From positions 1 to 25,703 of IMG/VR virus record IMGVR_UViG_3300037231_000090: a stretch of 25,703 nucleotides of DNA; one strand, given 5' to 3'. Under the pieces are notes generated by a model. The model did no database searches. It saw nothing but the letters and a program-made list of their open reading frames with translations, and was not told the DNA's origin. Below, piece after piece: positions 3,234 to 8,183 of this stretch (the first letter of the stretch is position 1; each line of letters begins with the position of its first letter). The position numbers were made by a program, and so were the translations under genes. The DNA comes from a virus.

Positions 3234-3677
3234 ATGAAATTGTCTGGCGCAATTCTTTTGGTCGAGCCTGAGAAGGTGGTCGATTTCACCGTGCCGTACC
3301 TCACGCCGCCGAGCGTGAATCACTACACCCGGCCCTGCATGTATACAGGCAAAGACGGGTTCCCGCATCGCGGTAAAAAGCTCACCAAAGAGGCGAAGGC
3401 CTACATCGAAGCCGTGGCGATCTTCGCTCGAGGCCGCACCGTCGCACCGAACACAGACTCCGAACGTAGACGCGTTCGCTATCGCATTGTGGTGCGGGTT
3501 GTCCTGGGATTCAACCAGAGACTCGACAGCGATAACTCGCTCAAGGTGGCGATCGACGCACTCAAGCATTGTGGGGTGATTCATTCCGATGCCTACTCGG
3601 AAGACTCCAGGGCGCTCATCGTGAAGAACGACCGCCAGAATCCACGAACCGAGTTCTTGGTTGAGAGGATGGATTAA
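3234..3677 (+). CDS. rusA: RusA-type Holliday junction resolvase
   Basis: A 147-residue endonuclease of the RusA family, which cuts four-way DNA junctions and in phages clears branched DNA before packaging. The N-terminal motif VPYLTPPSVNHY (residues 20-31) fits the family. Asp98, Asp100 and Asp119, with Lys104, have the same spacing as the E. coli RusA catalytic residues Asp70, Asp72, Asp91 and Lys76. The surrounding stretch LDSDNSLKVAIDAL is typical. The chosen ATG lies 18 bp from the divergent start and lacks a ribosome-binding site, so translation may be leaderless or begin slightly downstream. Its stop overlaps the next ATG by one base, so it heads the rightward gene cluster. Confidence 0.88.
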   Translation: MKLSGAILLVEPEKVVDFTVPYLTPPSVNHYTRPCMYTGKDGFPHRGKKLTKEAKAYIEAVAIFARGRTVAPNTDSERRRVRYRIVVRVVLGFNQRLDSDNSLKVAIDALKHCGVIHSDAYSEDSRALIVKNDRQNPRTEFLVERMD

Positions 3678-4737: not shown

Positions 4738-5367
4738 GTGGCCATTTCAGATCGCCCGTACGGCCCGACTTCCGGAGCCGCCAGCGTAGCCAACCAGATC
4801 CCGCTCAACCAGCAGGCGACCCAGACCCAGACGCTGGCCGGCGTGCTACCGGTGGAGTTCACCCTGGGCGCGGCCACCCAGACCATCGCGCCCAGCGCGC
4901 CGAATGCGGCCGTTCCGCTTTCGATTGTGATCCCCCCCGATACCCAGATCGAGCAGACCGTCTTCGACCTGTGGGCGTCCGGGTATATCCAGACCAGGGC
5001 GGCTGGAACGCTTACCATCGATGTCTATGAGGGCAGCAGCGAGACGATCGCCAGCAACACCCTGCTGGGTACAAGCGGAGCTATCGCACAGAACACCGAG
5101 ATCGCAGCGTGGTTCGCCCATGCGGTACTGATCTTCGACTCGGTGAGCGGAACGCTGGCCGGCGAGATCGAGTTCTACGTCAACAAGACCATCGTTGCCG
5201 CAGTGACGCTTTCCAACTTCCCGACCGGATTCCTCAACCAGGCCAATCCGTCCGCGAACCCGCCGACCGTCGCGGTCCTGCCGAGCTTCACCCTTACCTT
5301 TGCTTCGAGCGGAGCTACTGGTGGGGCGCCGACGACCGTGAACATTCAGAAGTTCAGCTGCGGCTAA
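4738..5367 (+). CDS. Beta-rich putative virion protein
   Basis: A 209-residue protein starting at GTG behind an AAGGAGA ribosome-binding site. It is rich in Thr, Ala and Ser with regular strand-like segments (VFDLWASGYI, TLTIDVYEG, FTLTFASS) and almost no charged helices. No signal peptide. It resembles in pattern the protein at 13881-14525, so it may be a capsid decoration or spike-type protein, even though it lies outside the main virion operon. No named family is recognised. It could also be an early-expressed surface or adhesion protein. Confidence 0.6.
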   Translation: MAISDRPYGPTSGAASVANQIPLNQQATQTQTLAGVLPVEFTLGAATQTIAPSAPNAAVPLSIVIPPDTQIEQTVFDLWASGYIQTRAAGTLTIDVYEGSSETIASNTLLGTSGAIAQNTEIAAWFAHAVLIFDSVSGTLAGEIEFYVNKTIVAAVTLSNFPTGFLNQANPSANPPTVAVLPSFTLTFASSGATGGAPTTVNIQKFSCG

Positions 5368-5418
5368 ACGAGATTGGGGGTCCCATGAACTTCGAGGCTT
5401 GTAACTATCGAGGCTCAT

Positions 5419-5449
5419 TCCCCATGGGGATGGCTGGGACGCCATCCCC
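5419..5449 (+). other. Overlapping palindrome and strong hairpin
   Basis: TCCCCATGGGGA (5419-5430) is a 12-bp perfect palindrome. Its right arm also belongs to a nine-pair stem GGGGATGGC/GCCATCCCC (5426-5434 with 5441-5449). The two structures cannot form together. There is no T-run, so a simple terminator is unlikely. It sits 10 bp before the tRNA-like element and may aid processing. Confidence 0.5.
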
Positions 5450-5458
5450 CCAAAGTTT

Positions 5459-5529
5459 GCGGTAGTAGCTCAGGTGGATAGAGCACTCGGCAGGGCCGAG
5501 AGGTCGGTGGTTCGAGCCCACCCGCCGCA
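5459..5529 (+). tRNA. tRNA-Arg-like element with shortened anticodon loop
   Basis: Acceptor GCGGTAG, then TA, D arm GCTC-AGGTGGATA-GAGC, A26, anticodon stem CTCGG/CCGAG, variable loop AGGTC, T arm GGTGG-TTCGAGC-CCACC, and a 3' acceptor strand CGCCGC followed by A. It closely follows the layout and wording of bacterial tRNA-Arg. Two defects stand out: the anticodon loop is CAGGG, five bases and not seven, with no U33, and the 3' acceptor strand is one base short. CCA is not encoded. It cannot decode normally, so it is a decayed tRNA, a specialised tRNA-like RNA, or a processing signal. Confidence 0.6.
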
Positions 5530-5573
5530 ATTCAATCATGGGAAAGCGCGGAGAATATCCGGCAGCGCATCCG

Positions 5574-5602
5574 TTGACTCGGGTCGAATAGGAGCCTAAA
5601 AC
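5574..5602 (+). promoter_or_regulatory. Candidate promoter of the packaging operon
   Basis: TTGACT (5574-5579) and TAAAAC (5597-5602) are separated by 17 bp, a good sigma-70-type match. Transcription would start near 5609, about 26 bp before the ATG at 5636, leaving room for its TAAGGAGAG ribosome-binding site. It lies between the tRNA-like element and the first gene of the packaging and capsid run. Confidence 0.55.
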
Positions 5603-5635
5603 TCCCGCATAACCTTCAAATTAAGGAGAGACGCG

Positions 5636-5950
5636 ATGGCCGAAGAGAAAGAACACGAGGGCAAGAAAAAGCCAGCGAAGAAACATCTGCACGAGATCCG
5701 CAGCGAAGCGACCGAAGACGGCCACATCTTGCACCACCATACCTACAAGGCTAAGAAGGGTGATGCTCAGACCGAACCTGAGCGTAAGAATGTGGCTGTC
5801 AGCTCTTCGCCCGAAGAGGCTGGAGAGCACGTCGCTGATCAGTTTGCCATGAACCAGCCCGCGCCCGACGCGGGAGCCGACCCCGATGCGGGAGCTGCGC
5901 CCGGCGGGGCAGCACCGGATGCAGCAGCAGCACCCTCAGCGGGGATGTAA
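5636..5950 (+). CDS. Small low-complexity phage protein
   Basis: A 104-residue soluble protein with a Lys/Glu-rich N-terminus, a His-containing middle (HILHHHTYKAK) and a tail of Pro, Ala, Gly and Asp repeats including two DAGADPDAG-like units. A strong ribosome-binding site precedes it, and its stop shares one base with the next start. It is the first gene after the candidate promoter. Position ahead of terminase would suit a small terminase, but no helix-turn-helix or oligomerisation motif is visible, so function is left open. Confidence 0.6.
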   Translation: MAEEKEHEGKKKPAKKHLHEIRSEATEDGHILHHHTYKAKKGDAQTEPERKNVAVSSSPEEAGEHVADQFAMNQPAPDAGADPDAGAAPGGAAPDAAAAPSAGM

Positions 5951-6483
5951 TGGCTAAATTGGGCTATTGTCAATGCGGATGCGGCGTGAAAACACGCATT
6001 GCCAAGTTCAATAAGAAGTCGCGGGGATACATCAAGGGGAGGCCGATTCGCTATTTAGTGGGACACGGCAGTCGGCTTTCTCCGGTTGAATATATCGAAC
6101 AGGATATGGGATACAAAACTCCATGCTGGGTTTGGCAGAAGAGCCTTAGACCAAATGGATACGCGCAAATGCCTGCCGATGGAACCATCCGCTTATCCCA
6201 TATTGTCTATTACGAGCGTCGTTTTGGCCGCGTTCCAAAAGGCAAGATGCTCGATCATCTATGCCGCATCCGACGTTGCGTAAATCCAGACCACATGGAG
6301 ACCGTATCGAATCAGGTCAACTCACAGAGAGGCAATAAAAGTAAGATCAACCCTGAAATTGTGGCGCGGATTCGCGCACTTCGAGCGTCCGGACTCTTTA
6401 TGAGAGAGATAGCATCCCAGCTTGGAATCGGCAGGACAACGGTTGTGTATGTCTGCCAGAGAAGAATCTGGAACAACGTCTGA
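5950..6483 (+). CDS. HNH homing-type endonuclease with C-terminal HTH
   Basis: A 177-residue free-standing endonuclease. It has an N-terminal cysteine knuckle (CQCGCG, residues 8-13), an HNH core at about 83-125 (SHIVYYERRFG, then LDHLCRIRRCVNPDHME and a following Asn), and a C-terminal helix-turn-helix (REIASQLGIGRTTV). This is the HNH_3 type common in phage homing genes. It sits between the first operon gene and the large terminase, overlapping both by one base. The DNA is visibly more AT-rich than its neighbours, suggesting recent arrival. It may spread itself by cutting related phages; a role in packaging, as for some HNH proteins beside terminases, is an alternative. Confidence 0.85.
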   Translation: MAKLGYCQCGCGVKTRIAKFNKKSRGYIKGRPIRYLVGHGSRLSPVEYIEQDMGYKTPCWVWQKSLRPNGYAQMPADGTIRLSHIVYYERRFGRVPKGKMLDHLCRIRRCVNPDHMETVSNQVNSQRGNKSKINPEIVARIRALRASGLFMREIASQLGIGRTTVVYVCQRRIWNNV

Positions 6484-8183
6484 TGATCGAACTAGACGAC
6501 CACGAACGAATTGTGCGGGATGCCGAGTACCGCGAAGGCCTGCGGCACCGCTTTATTACTGACCACTTCTTTGCTGCGAAAATGTTGGGCTTTAACGGAT
6601 TCCATCCCGTCATTCATAAGCCTGCGGTCGATCTGTACTTCCCGAAGAATTCACTGCTCCCGATTGAAGAGCAAGACTCTATCAAAAACCGGATGCACTT
6701 AGACCCACGGTTTTCGTTTAAGACGACTCTTAATCGAATTGACAAAGTGCAGTGGATATGCGCCTTTCCCAAGATCATCACCGTCCTGAACGAGACGGCA
6801 ACACAGCCGCTTGCCAAGGCCATCTCCAAAGGAATCGCCAATTTCTTCTACTGCCCGAAGTACCAGAAGCCGAGCCGATTTCAGTTGTGCTTTCCGGAGT
6901 TGGTGGTAGAAAAGCCGCCGTTTGGTGTCGGCGACACCTGGAGTACGCCGGTTCACGAAAGCAATTCGCTCGATGAAACCATCTCCTATACGTCGCCACA
7001 GACGGAACAATCCGGCTGGCATCCGTGGGTGCTGAACTGCGATGACATGGTGGCGACCAAGAACAGCGGAATCCGCGCCACGCAGGACGCGCGGCAGGGC
7101 GTCATTGATACCTTCGACACCAACAAAAATACATTGGTTCCAGGTGGCTACCTGTACCTCGTAGGCACCCGATATGCACCCTTTGACCTGTACGGCGTAC
7201 GCCTCAATGACATGGACCCGGATTTATGGAAGGTTCTAATCCGGCAATCGGTCATTTGCAAGGACGGTGCGCGGCTGCTCCCCGGAGAATTTCCAGCGGA
7301 AGACGATGTAATTTTGCCTTTCAATGAGCTGCCCGGAATGAACTATAAACGACTGCGTTCGATGTTCTTTGAGAACTATGAAACCTTTCTCGCACAGCAG
7401 CAGAACGACCCGCAAGGCGGCCACACACCCATCTTCGACGAGAAGCTGTATGGGACGTGCGAGGCCAACATCGAGCGGATTCCGCCGTATGGTGGCGAGA
7501 CGTTTGTGTGCTGGCGGCTGCCGTATGGAAGCAAGCCGGCGACGAGCAAGTTTCTCGAGGGCGCGGCGGCGAGGATCCTCGACGGCAAGGTATATGTGAT
7601 CGACTGCTGGCAGATCGGCGGCACGCCCAGCCACCAGGCCGAGAGGATGGTGCAGATCCACAAGCGGATGCAGGCCGACGGCATGATGATCCTGAATACG
7701 CCCGGCAGCGATGGCTTTGCGCCGCACCTGCGCAATGAGGCGGCACGGAAGAATGTCAGCATCCGCATCCGGTGGACAGACTGGGAAGACAATGAAACTC
7801 TGCGCGACGACTCGATCAAGCAGATGGAGCCGGTGTTGAAGGTGGGACGGATCCTCTTCGCGCGAGGCATGACCAAGGGCGGCGAGTGCAAGAAACAATT
7901 CGTCTACTTTGGCCTGATCGAGGAGAATGGAATCATCGAGTGCATTTCGAAGCTGGGGAACCTGGTGCCAAGGTCGCAGATGCGTGCCGCTATGGAGGAT
8001 GATGAGTTGGAACACCAGAGACGCCGCAGTGACGATGCCAGCCTGAATTGGTTGCTGGATCTGCAAGGCAAACCCATCGTGGATGAGCAGGCGAAACGGA
8101 AGACTCTGGCGCATGTGCAGGCCATGCAGAAGGCGACCACGTATAGCTTCCTGCCTAAGATGCCTGGGGGGCTTGATGGTTAA
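6483..8183 (+). CDS. terL: Terminase large subunit, divergent
   Basis: A 566-residue packaging motor that would cut concatemeric DNA and pump it through the portal. The N-terminal ATPase shows DPRFSFKTT at residues 74-82 in the Walker A position, an odd form where Phe replaces the usual Gly before Lys, and VLNCDDMV at 183-190 as Walker B. The C-terminal nuclease half contains VYVIDCWQIGG near 370 and a later acidic segment. Length suits the family. Genes following it (winged helix, portal, scaffold candidate, capsid) support the call. No standard small terminase precedes it. The terminal eight bases overlap the next gene. Confidence 0.82.
   Translation: MIELDDHERIVRDAEYREGLRHRFITDHFFAAKMLGFNGFHPVIHKPAVDLYFPKNSLLPIEEQDSIKNRMHLDPRFSFKTTLNRIDKVQWICAFPKIITVLNETATQPLAKAISKGIANFFYCPKYQKPSRFQLCFPELVVEKPPFGVGDTWSTPVHESNSLDETISYTSPQTEQSGWHPWVLNCDDMVATKNSGIRATQDARQGVIDTFDTNKNTLVPGGYLYLVGTRYAPFDLYGVRLNDMDPDLWKVLIRQSVICKDGARLLPGEFPAEDDVILPFNELPGMNYKRLRSMFFENYETFLAQQQNDPQGGHTPIFDEKLYGTCEANIERIPPYGGETFVCWRLPYGSKPATSKFLEGAAARILDGKVYVIDCWQIGGTPSHQAERMVQIHKRMQADGMMILNTPGSDGFAPHLRNEAARKNVSIRIRWTDWEDNETLRDDSIKQMEPVLKVGRILFARGMTKGGECKKQFVYFGLIEENGIIECISKLGNLVPRSQMRAAMEDDELEHQRRRSDDASLNWLLDLQGKPIVDEQAKRKTLAHVQAMQKATTYSFLPKMPGGLDG

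Follow-up and report, generated by a model that had tools for sequence, protein, structure and literature searches.

A tRNA-shaped element with a five-base anticodon loop in an intergenic slot ahead of the packaging genes of a soil phage

The DNA analysed here, the window, is the full 25,703 nucleotides of IMG/VR record IMGVR_UViG_3300037231_000090, a 25.7 kb virus contig of a soil phage. A tRNA-like element lies in an intergenic slot ahead of the packaging genes, sense to the genes that flank it, and is enclosed by two short flanking sequences, here termed the frame. The features of the region are:

4738..5367, + strand: 209-aa gene, function unassigned, upstream of the slot and kept in relatives
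5368..5635, + strand: intergenic slot of 268 bases between the 209-aa and 104-aa genes (ORF map, relatives)
5426..5449, + strand: GC-rich 9-bp hairpin GGGGATGGC/GCCATCCCC, in the same slot, just 5' of the frame (sequence, folds)
5453..5462, + strand: 5' arm of the frame (AAGTTTGCGG), in which U5457 and U5458 lengthen the acceptor stem
5459..5529, + strand: tRNA-like core with acceptor, D, anticodon and T arms and a discriminator-like A5529, no encoded CCA (Rfam tRNA, ARAGORN, fold)
5468..5484, + strand: D arm, stem GCTC/GAGC, loop of 9 bases (sequence, cmscan, fold)
5486..5500, + strand: anticodon arm CTCGG-CAGGG-CCGAG, with a loop of five or a C(AGG)G triloop, 15 nt and not 17 (sequence, cmscan, fold, comparison with tRNA-Pro(CGG))
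5506..5522, + strand: T arm GGTGG-TTCGAGC-CCACC (sequence, cmscan, T-arm search)
5525..5535, + strand: 3' arm of the frame (CCGCAATTCAA)
5636..5950, + strand: 104-aa gene, downstream of the slot and kept in most relatives
6483..8183, + strand: terminase large subunit, terL, the query for relatives (phrog_38)

We did not find a promoter-like site near the element in a search with one consensus type. An intrinsic terminator was set aside, as no terminator-like site (a GC-rich hairpin followed by a T run) was found on the + strand between 4600 and 6600, and cmscan gave no ribozyme in the searched slots. A gene encoding an HNH endonuclease lies between the 104-aa gene and terL (5950-6483). It had no tblastn match in the first 20 relatives checked, and a different HNH-like ORF takes its position in relative L011. 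This turnover of HNH genes next to the slot suggests an insertion hotspot. Elsewhere in the window, positions 318-756 hold an array of direct repeats of about 22-25 bp with the core TACGCGGAAGCACGATAG, adjoining a minus-strand cluster that encodes a ParA ATPase (2191-2916) together with a gene at 814-1980 that may serve replication and has no family match. The repeats and the ParA cluster resemble a plasmid-type origin, and the phage may have a phage-plasmid lifestyle.

The element at 5459-5529 is tRNA-derived, lies on the + strand and has complete internal stems. The D stem (5468-5471/5481-5484) is paired at 4 of 4 positions, and the anticodon stem (5486-5490/5496-5500) and the T stem (5506-5510/5518-5522) at 5 of 5 each. 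The T-loop is TTCGAGC and the variable loop, at 5501-5505, is AGGTC, whereas the anticodon loop, CAGGG at 5491-5495, has five bases in place of the normal seven. In the canonical register the acceptor has six bases on its 3' side (5523-5528) against seven on its 5' side, and its stem is lengthened by the pairs U5457-A5530 and U5458-A5529. The Rfam tRNA model matched with 38.1 bits (E 8e-7, cmscan), above the gathering score of 29, and ARAGORN called a tRNA-Pro(AGG) at 5457-5531. The cloverleaf is the unconstrained minimum-energy fold, in which the anticodon loop closes further into the triloop C(AGG)G. In energy, shuffled sequences are only moderately worse (z -1.67; 14 of 200 shuffles were equally good). 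A preliminary description of the locus, made from the sequence alone, had given the same coordinates, arms, five-base CAGGG loop and acceptor 3' strand one base short, and had proposed Infernal as a check; cmscan and the fold bear it out on these points. It delimited the core correctly, and missed that the unit is larger, taking in the frame flanks and the pairs formed by U5457 and U5458.

The conserved D- and T-arm cloverleaf of a functional tRNA gene is thus present. The seven-base anticodon loop with U33 that such a gene needs is absent; the lack of U33 is deduced from the length of the loop, from which it cannot be told which bases were deleted. A five-base anticodon loop is not expected to adopt the standard U-turn. 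A functional tRNA also has an acceptor of 7 bp with a free 3' end and CCA, whereas here the 3' strand is one base short, positions -1 and -2 are paired and CCA is not encoded, although it could still be added enzymatically.

The preliminary description took the element for a tRNA-Arg, which did not hold. The closest tRNAs found were tRNA-Pro(CGG), with 80% identity over 62 nt, in a comparison set of 297 genomes from one phylum (around a Blastocatellia genome) picked via a chance locus, and the ARAGORN call is likewise a proline tRNA. Judged by sequence similarity, the element is Pro-like and not Arg-like. Relative to this tRNA-Pro(CGG), which is the nearest tRNA found and not an ancestor of the element, changes fall on 1 of 28 stem positions and on 11 of 29 loop positions (p 0.0014), and the single difference in an internal stem leaves pairing intact. 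No exact copies of the element were found among viral contigs. Distant blastn searches among phages yielded ordinary tRNAs along with tRNA-like matches that carry no annotation. The tRNA-Met located upstream of the terminase genes of Bordetella phage PHB09 was considered as a counterpart and rejected, its loop being normal. No provirus came to light when genome contigs were searched with TerL.

The comparison of the slot covered 58 terminase relatives for which upstream sequence was available, counting the window. Perfect T-arms, defined by five pairs, a TTCRANN loop and a closing G-C, number 8 on the sense strand of the 74,440 bp that precede terL, versus 1 in 1,304,310 bp elsewhere in the same loci. 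Detection by T-arm misses elements that lack an intact one; the D, acceptor and anticodon stems are untouched by this bias. Searches of whole records with the tRNA model found no canonical tRNA in the clade. Two canonical tRNAs were seen solely in a distant relative, G063.

Each clear tRNA-like element in the clade has a non-decodable anticodon arm. In the close relative L007 the same slot holds a class-II-type tRNA-like element (Rfam 36.4 bits) with the arm CAGCC-GGAGA-GGCTG and a five-base loop. Five-base loops are also found in L018b (GCGGC-CGGGG-GCCGC) and L079 (CCCGT-CATGG-ACGGG), while L018a has a three-base loop (GTGGTCACCAC) and in L019 a six-pair hairpin replaces the anticodon loop. 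L069 carries two tandem, circularly permuted tRNA-like units without an anticodon arm (3308-3473). The slot of L064 holds a T-arm-like piece alone, which may be a remnant. Pairing holds at about 117 of 120 canonical stem positions (about 97%) across six elements, a count that uses the L018a acceptor in its fully paired register; an automated count with this strand out of register gave 112. Comparison of relatives for a normal seven-base loop at the slot, another check proposed in the preliminary description, found none, the loop of L007 being GGAGA. The view that the stems were kept while decoding was lost gains from the five-base loops of L007, L018 and L079, which make ordinary decay or a sequencing error unlikely. 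In brief, elements that are independent and of differing tRNA types lack the decoding end, which was lost by various routes, and retain the remaining fold; they share one slot and, in part, one frame. What is kept seems to be shape rather than decoding.

Other relatives differ in what the slot contains. In L005, L006, L008, L009 and L022 it is filled by other stable hairpins, and in the close relative L002 the gap between the homologues of the 209-aa and 104-aa genes measures 10 bases. Structure is common in the slot across the clade, with a mean fold z of -2.0 and 28 of 53 slots below -2. The closest syntenic relatives (75-80% TerL) are mostly without any tRNA-like element, and the window element is therefore dispensable. 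Searches with the portal and additional TerL sequences gave few new slots and zero new tRNA-like elements. Structured classes without a match in Rfam recur in the slots, one in L005, L006, L009 and L059 and another in L008, L075 and L077. The GTGCG...CGCACGTTAAATA core of the latter is reminiscent of a pistol ribozyme, which was not retained as Rfam gave no confirmation.

The frame around the window element consists of AAGTTTGC (5453-5460) and GCAATTCAA (5527-5535). The elements of L018 and L019, which are arranged in tandem, share these flanks, with 5' AAGTTTGC (AAATTTGC in one L018 unit) and 3' GCAATTCAA. The flanks extend or enclose the acceptor stem. Searches with the flanks found the frame also in L031, an unrelated phage with a 7-deazaguanine-type gene set, around a tRNA-like interior without an anticodon arm. 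Positions 1850-5730 of L031 hold queuosine/7-deazaguanine-like genes and two frame units, of which the first kind is tRNA-like and the other a short hairpin. Six further sequence groups, L281, L282, L283, L286, L287 and L301, also carry the frame; on the stretches covered, the terminase, portal and slot genes of the clade gave no tblastn match in them. Some interiors in these six groups are not tRNA-like, and the L283 group has a T-arm. In L283 a frame unit at 853-950 lies downstream of terL, between late genes, with the T-arm followed by a CCA-like end; the terminase for L283 sits on the related contig L285.

Among the distinct sequences found by their flanks only, 6 of 12 have three or more further base pairs (chance about 1.5e-5, with equal base use). 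The frame stem covaries. Its four variable positions pair in 66 of 68 cells across 17 units, a count slightly biased towards a stem by L080 and, by eye, L016 and L091, which were picked with pairing in view, and each of the four pairs occurs as three or more standard pair types in these units. Eleven of the 17 units have a frame that opens within 2 nt (-2 to +2) of the stop codon upstream, and the units are sense to their own genes. The window unit is off this rule, starting 85 nt past the stop codon and ending 102 nt before the next start. Frame neighbours that could be named are head and packaging genes (terminase, head maturation protease, major head protein) and, in L281, an endolysin. Neither such elements nor the frame were described in the papers covered by a limited open-access literature search.

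Among known systems, the bacterial Y RNA YrlA has a stem-attached tRNA-like domain that mimics the D, T and acceptor arms without an anticodon arm (PMC8394870). This domain escaped cutting by an anticodon nuclease, and competitive inhibition was proposed (PMC7790460). The two units of L069 match the YrlA model (RF02553) weakly and share its permuted layout. The window element differs in being unpermuted, in keeping a closed anticodon stem and in having no match to the model. Membership of YrlA was rejected, with no match in the window record and a best score in L069 of 38.8 bits against a cut-off of 69. The neighbour gene of YrlA, Rsr/Ro60 (TROVE), was found in 0 of 50 phage records; a host gene cannot be excluded. 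By analogy, the window element may work like a YrlA-type tRNA mimic, but it is not a YrlA RNA. Phage-encoded tRNAs, among them those associated with theta ribozymes, likewise place tRNA sequence in a phage genome; they decode, one in five is a suppressor, and their 3' end is probably matured by a ribozyme (PMC10879173). The window anticodon loop cannot decode, and the slots searched with cmscan hold no ribozyme.

tRNA-like substrates of RNase P occur in mRNAs and phage RNAs, an example being the C4 antisense RNA precursor of P1/P7 (cited in PMC11143913). They have a tRNA-like fold in common with the window element; theirs lies within a longer phage or polycistronic transcript and serves processing. 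An RNase P substrate has a stacked acceptor-T helix and a 5' leader that can be cleaved. The window element has the helix, but its leader bases -1 and -2 are paired in the fold, which is unfavourable.

Phages also carry tRNA sequence in attP fragments. The attP tRNA fragment of a tyrosine integrase has a 3' part identical to the host tRNA, whereas the window element is whole and about 80% like the nearest tRNAs found in the one phylum sampled. Among those window proteins that were compared with PHROG or Pfam, none was recognisable as an integrase, and there is no sign that the element is an attP fragment, a reading that was set aside. A frame-plus-T-arm pattern gave 22 matches in 84,980 genomes, none tRNA-like and about the chance level. 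A recombination target, one of three functions put forward in the preliminary description, found no support: no integrase was recognised among the proteins examined, the pattern matches are at chance level, and the element is whole and not a 3' half. A processing or mRNA-structure signal fits the position best of the three, and a decoy is possible.

From sequence comparison we suggest, with a probability of about one half, that the element is a non-coding RNA module, tRNA-shaped without a usable decoding end, placed in a slot between two cistrons of the late (morphogenesis) transcript. Ordinary decay would not repeatedly confine damage to the anticodon arm, and a structural part of this transcript is the simplest reading. 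The module probably acts in cis on the late mRNA: it is sense-oriented and lies between genes, frames are tied to stop codons, and relatives hold further stable structures in the slot, all of which favours this role. The structure might serve as a recognition site in the mRNA for host enzymes that bind or process tRNAs, such as RNase P, exonuclease-blocking enzymes or modification enzymes; alternatively it might be a barrier that separates expression of the upstream and downstream cistrons. Loss of the anticodon loop would prevent charging and use in translation, which could be harmful. It should be noted that RNase P usually prefers a single-stranded 5' leader, and that the window frame pairs the leader, which counts against use by RNase P. 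The distance of the window unit from a stop codon, unlike most frame units, also speaks against the module reading, as do the pieces in L069 and L064, which can be read as a decaying tRNA array, the lack of a tRNA-like element in most of the closest syntenic relatives, and a detection that for the most part needed an intact T-arm.

Such decay would mean that phage tRNA genes acquired at an insertion hotspot are losing function, with stems remaining through recency or chance. The slot is such a hotspot, next to which HNH genes and small ORFs are gained and lost; fragments are present in L069 and L064, and most close relatives have nothing there. We nevertheless regard this as rather unlikely, given several independent elements with the same type of damage limited to the anticodon arm and about 97% of stem pairs kept, a frame stem whose covariation extends to non-tRNA interiors, and no intact ancestor among the 58 relatives. 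About equally doubtful is a mimic acting in trans, in which a released RNA would soak up a host tRNA-binding factor such as an anticodon nuclease, a modification enzyme or PNPase. A single shape that is retained across differing isotypes and layouts would suit a decoy under changing pressure, the permuted units of L069 match YrlA at 38.8 and 25.6 bits, and the YrlA tRNA-like domain is a precedent (PMC7790460, PMC8394870). The position in the late morphogenesis operon and the frame tied to stop codons point to action in cis, however, and neither a promoter-like site near the window element, with one consensus type, nor a TROVE/Ro60 gene, in 50 records, was found.

The frame could also be a mobile DNA cassette or an insertion site, with the tRNA pieces incidental. 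Identical ends surround unrelated interiors in unrelated phages, and units stand in tandem in L018 and L019; yet no recombinase is linked to them, and a start just past stop codons in sense orientation is better explained at the RNA level, which makes this reading improbable. A group I intron was considered and set aside. Least credible of all is an odd functional phage tRNA whose short loop would read proline or leucine codons: ARAGORN assigns the anticodon AGG and the GG of Pro anticodons is retained, but the loop is not expected to make a U-turn, -1 and -2 are paired, CCA is unencoded, and relatives have counterparts without the loop or without the whole arm.

Beyond the module reading for this locus, we tentatively consider it possible that the frame units form a new class of RNA lying between cistrons of phage morphogenesis and late operons. 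Such a class would have a covarying frame, AAGUUUGC...GCAAUUCAA, usually opening just after a stop codon, around an exchangeable structured interior, often a tRNA mimic without a decoding end (short loop, hairpin-substituted, armless or, in a related slot, permuted), and might control how ribosomes or tRNA enzymes handle the late-gene boundary. Odd phage tRNAs are commonly dismissed as pseudogenes or counted as decoding tRNAs. If shape is all that such elements are kept for, some of the phage tRNA catalogue is mis-annotated; ARAGORN labels the window element a tRNA-Pro. The frame offers a simple handle for finding further elements and testing what they do. If shape is indeed all that is kept, phages have repeatedly made tRNAs into structural RNA parts, as bacteria have with Y RNAs.
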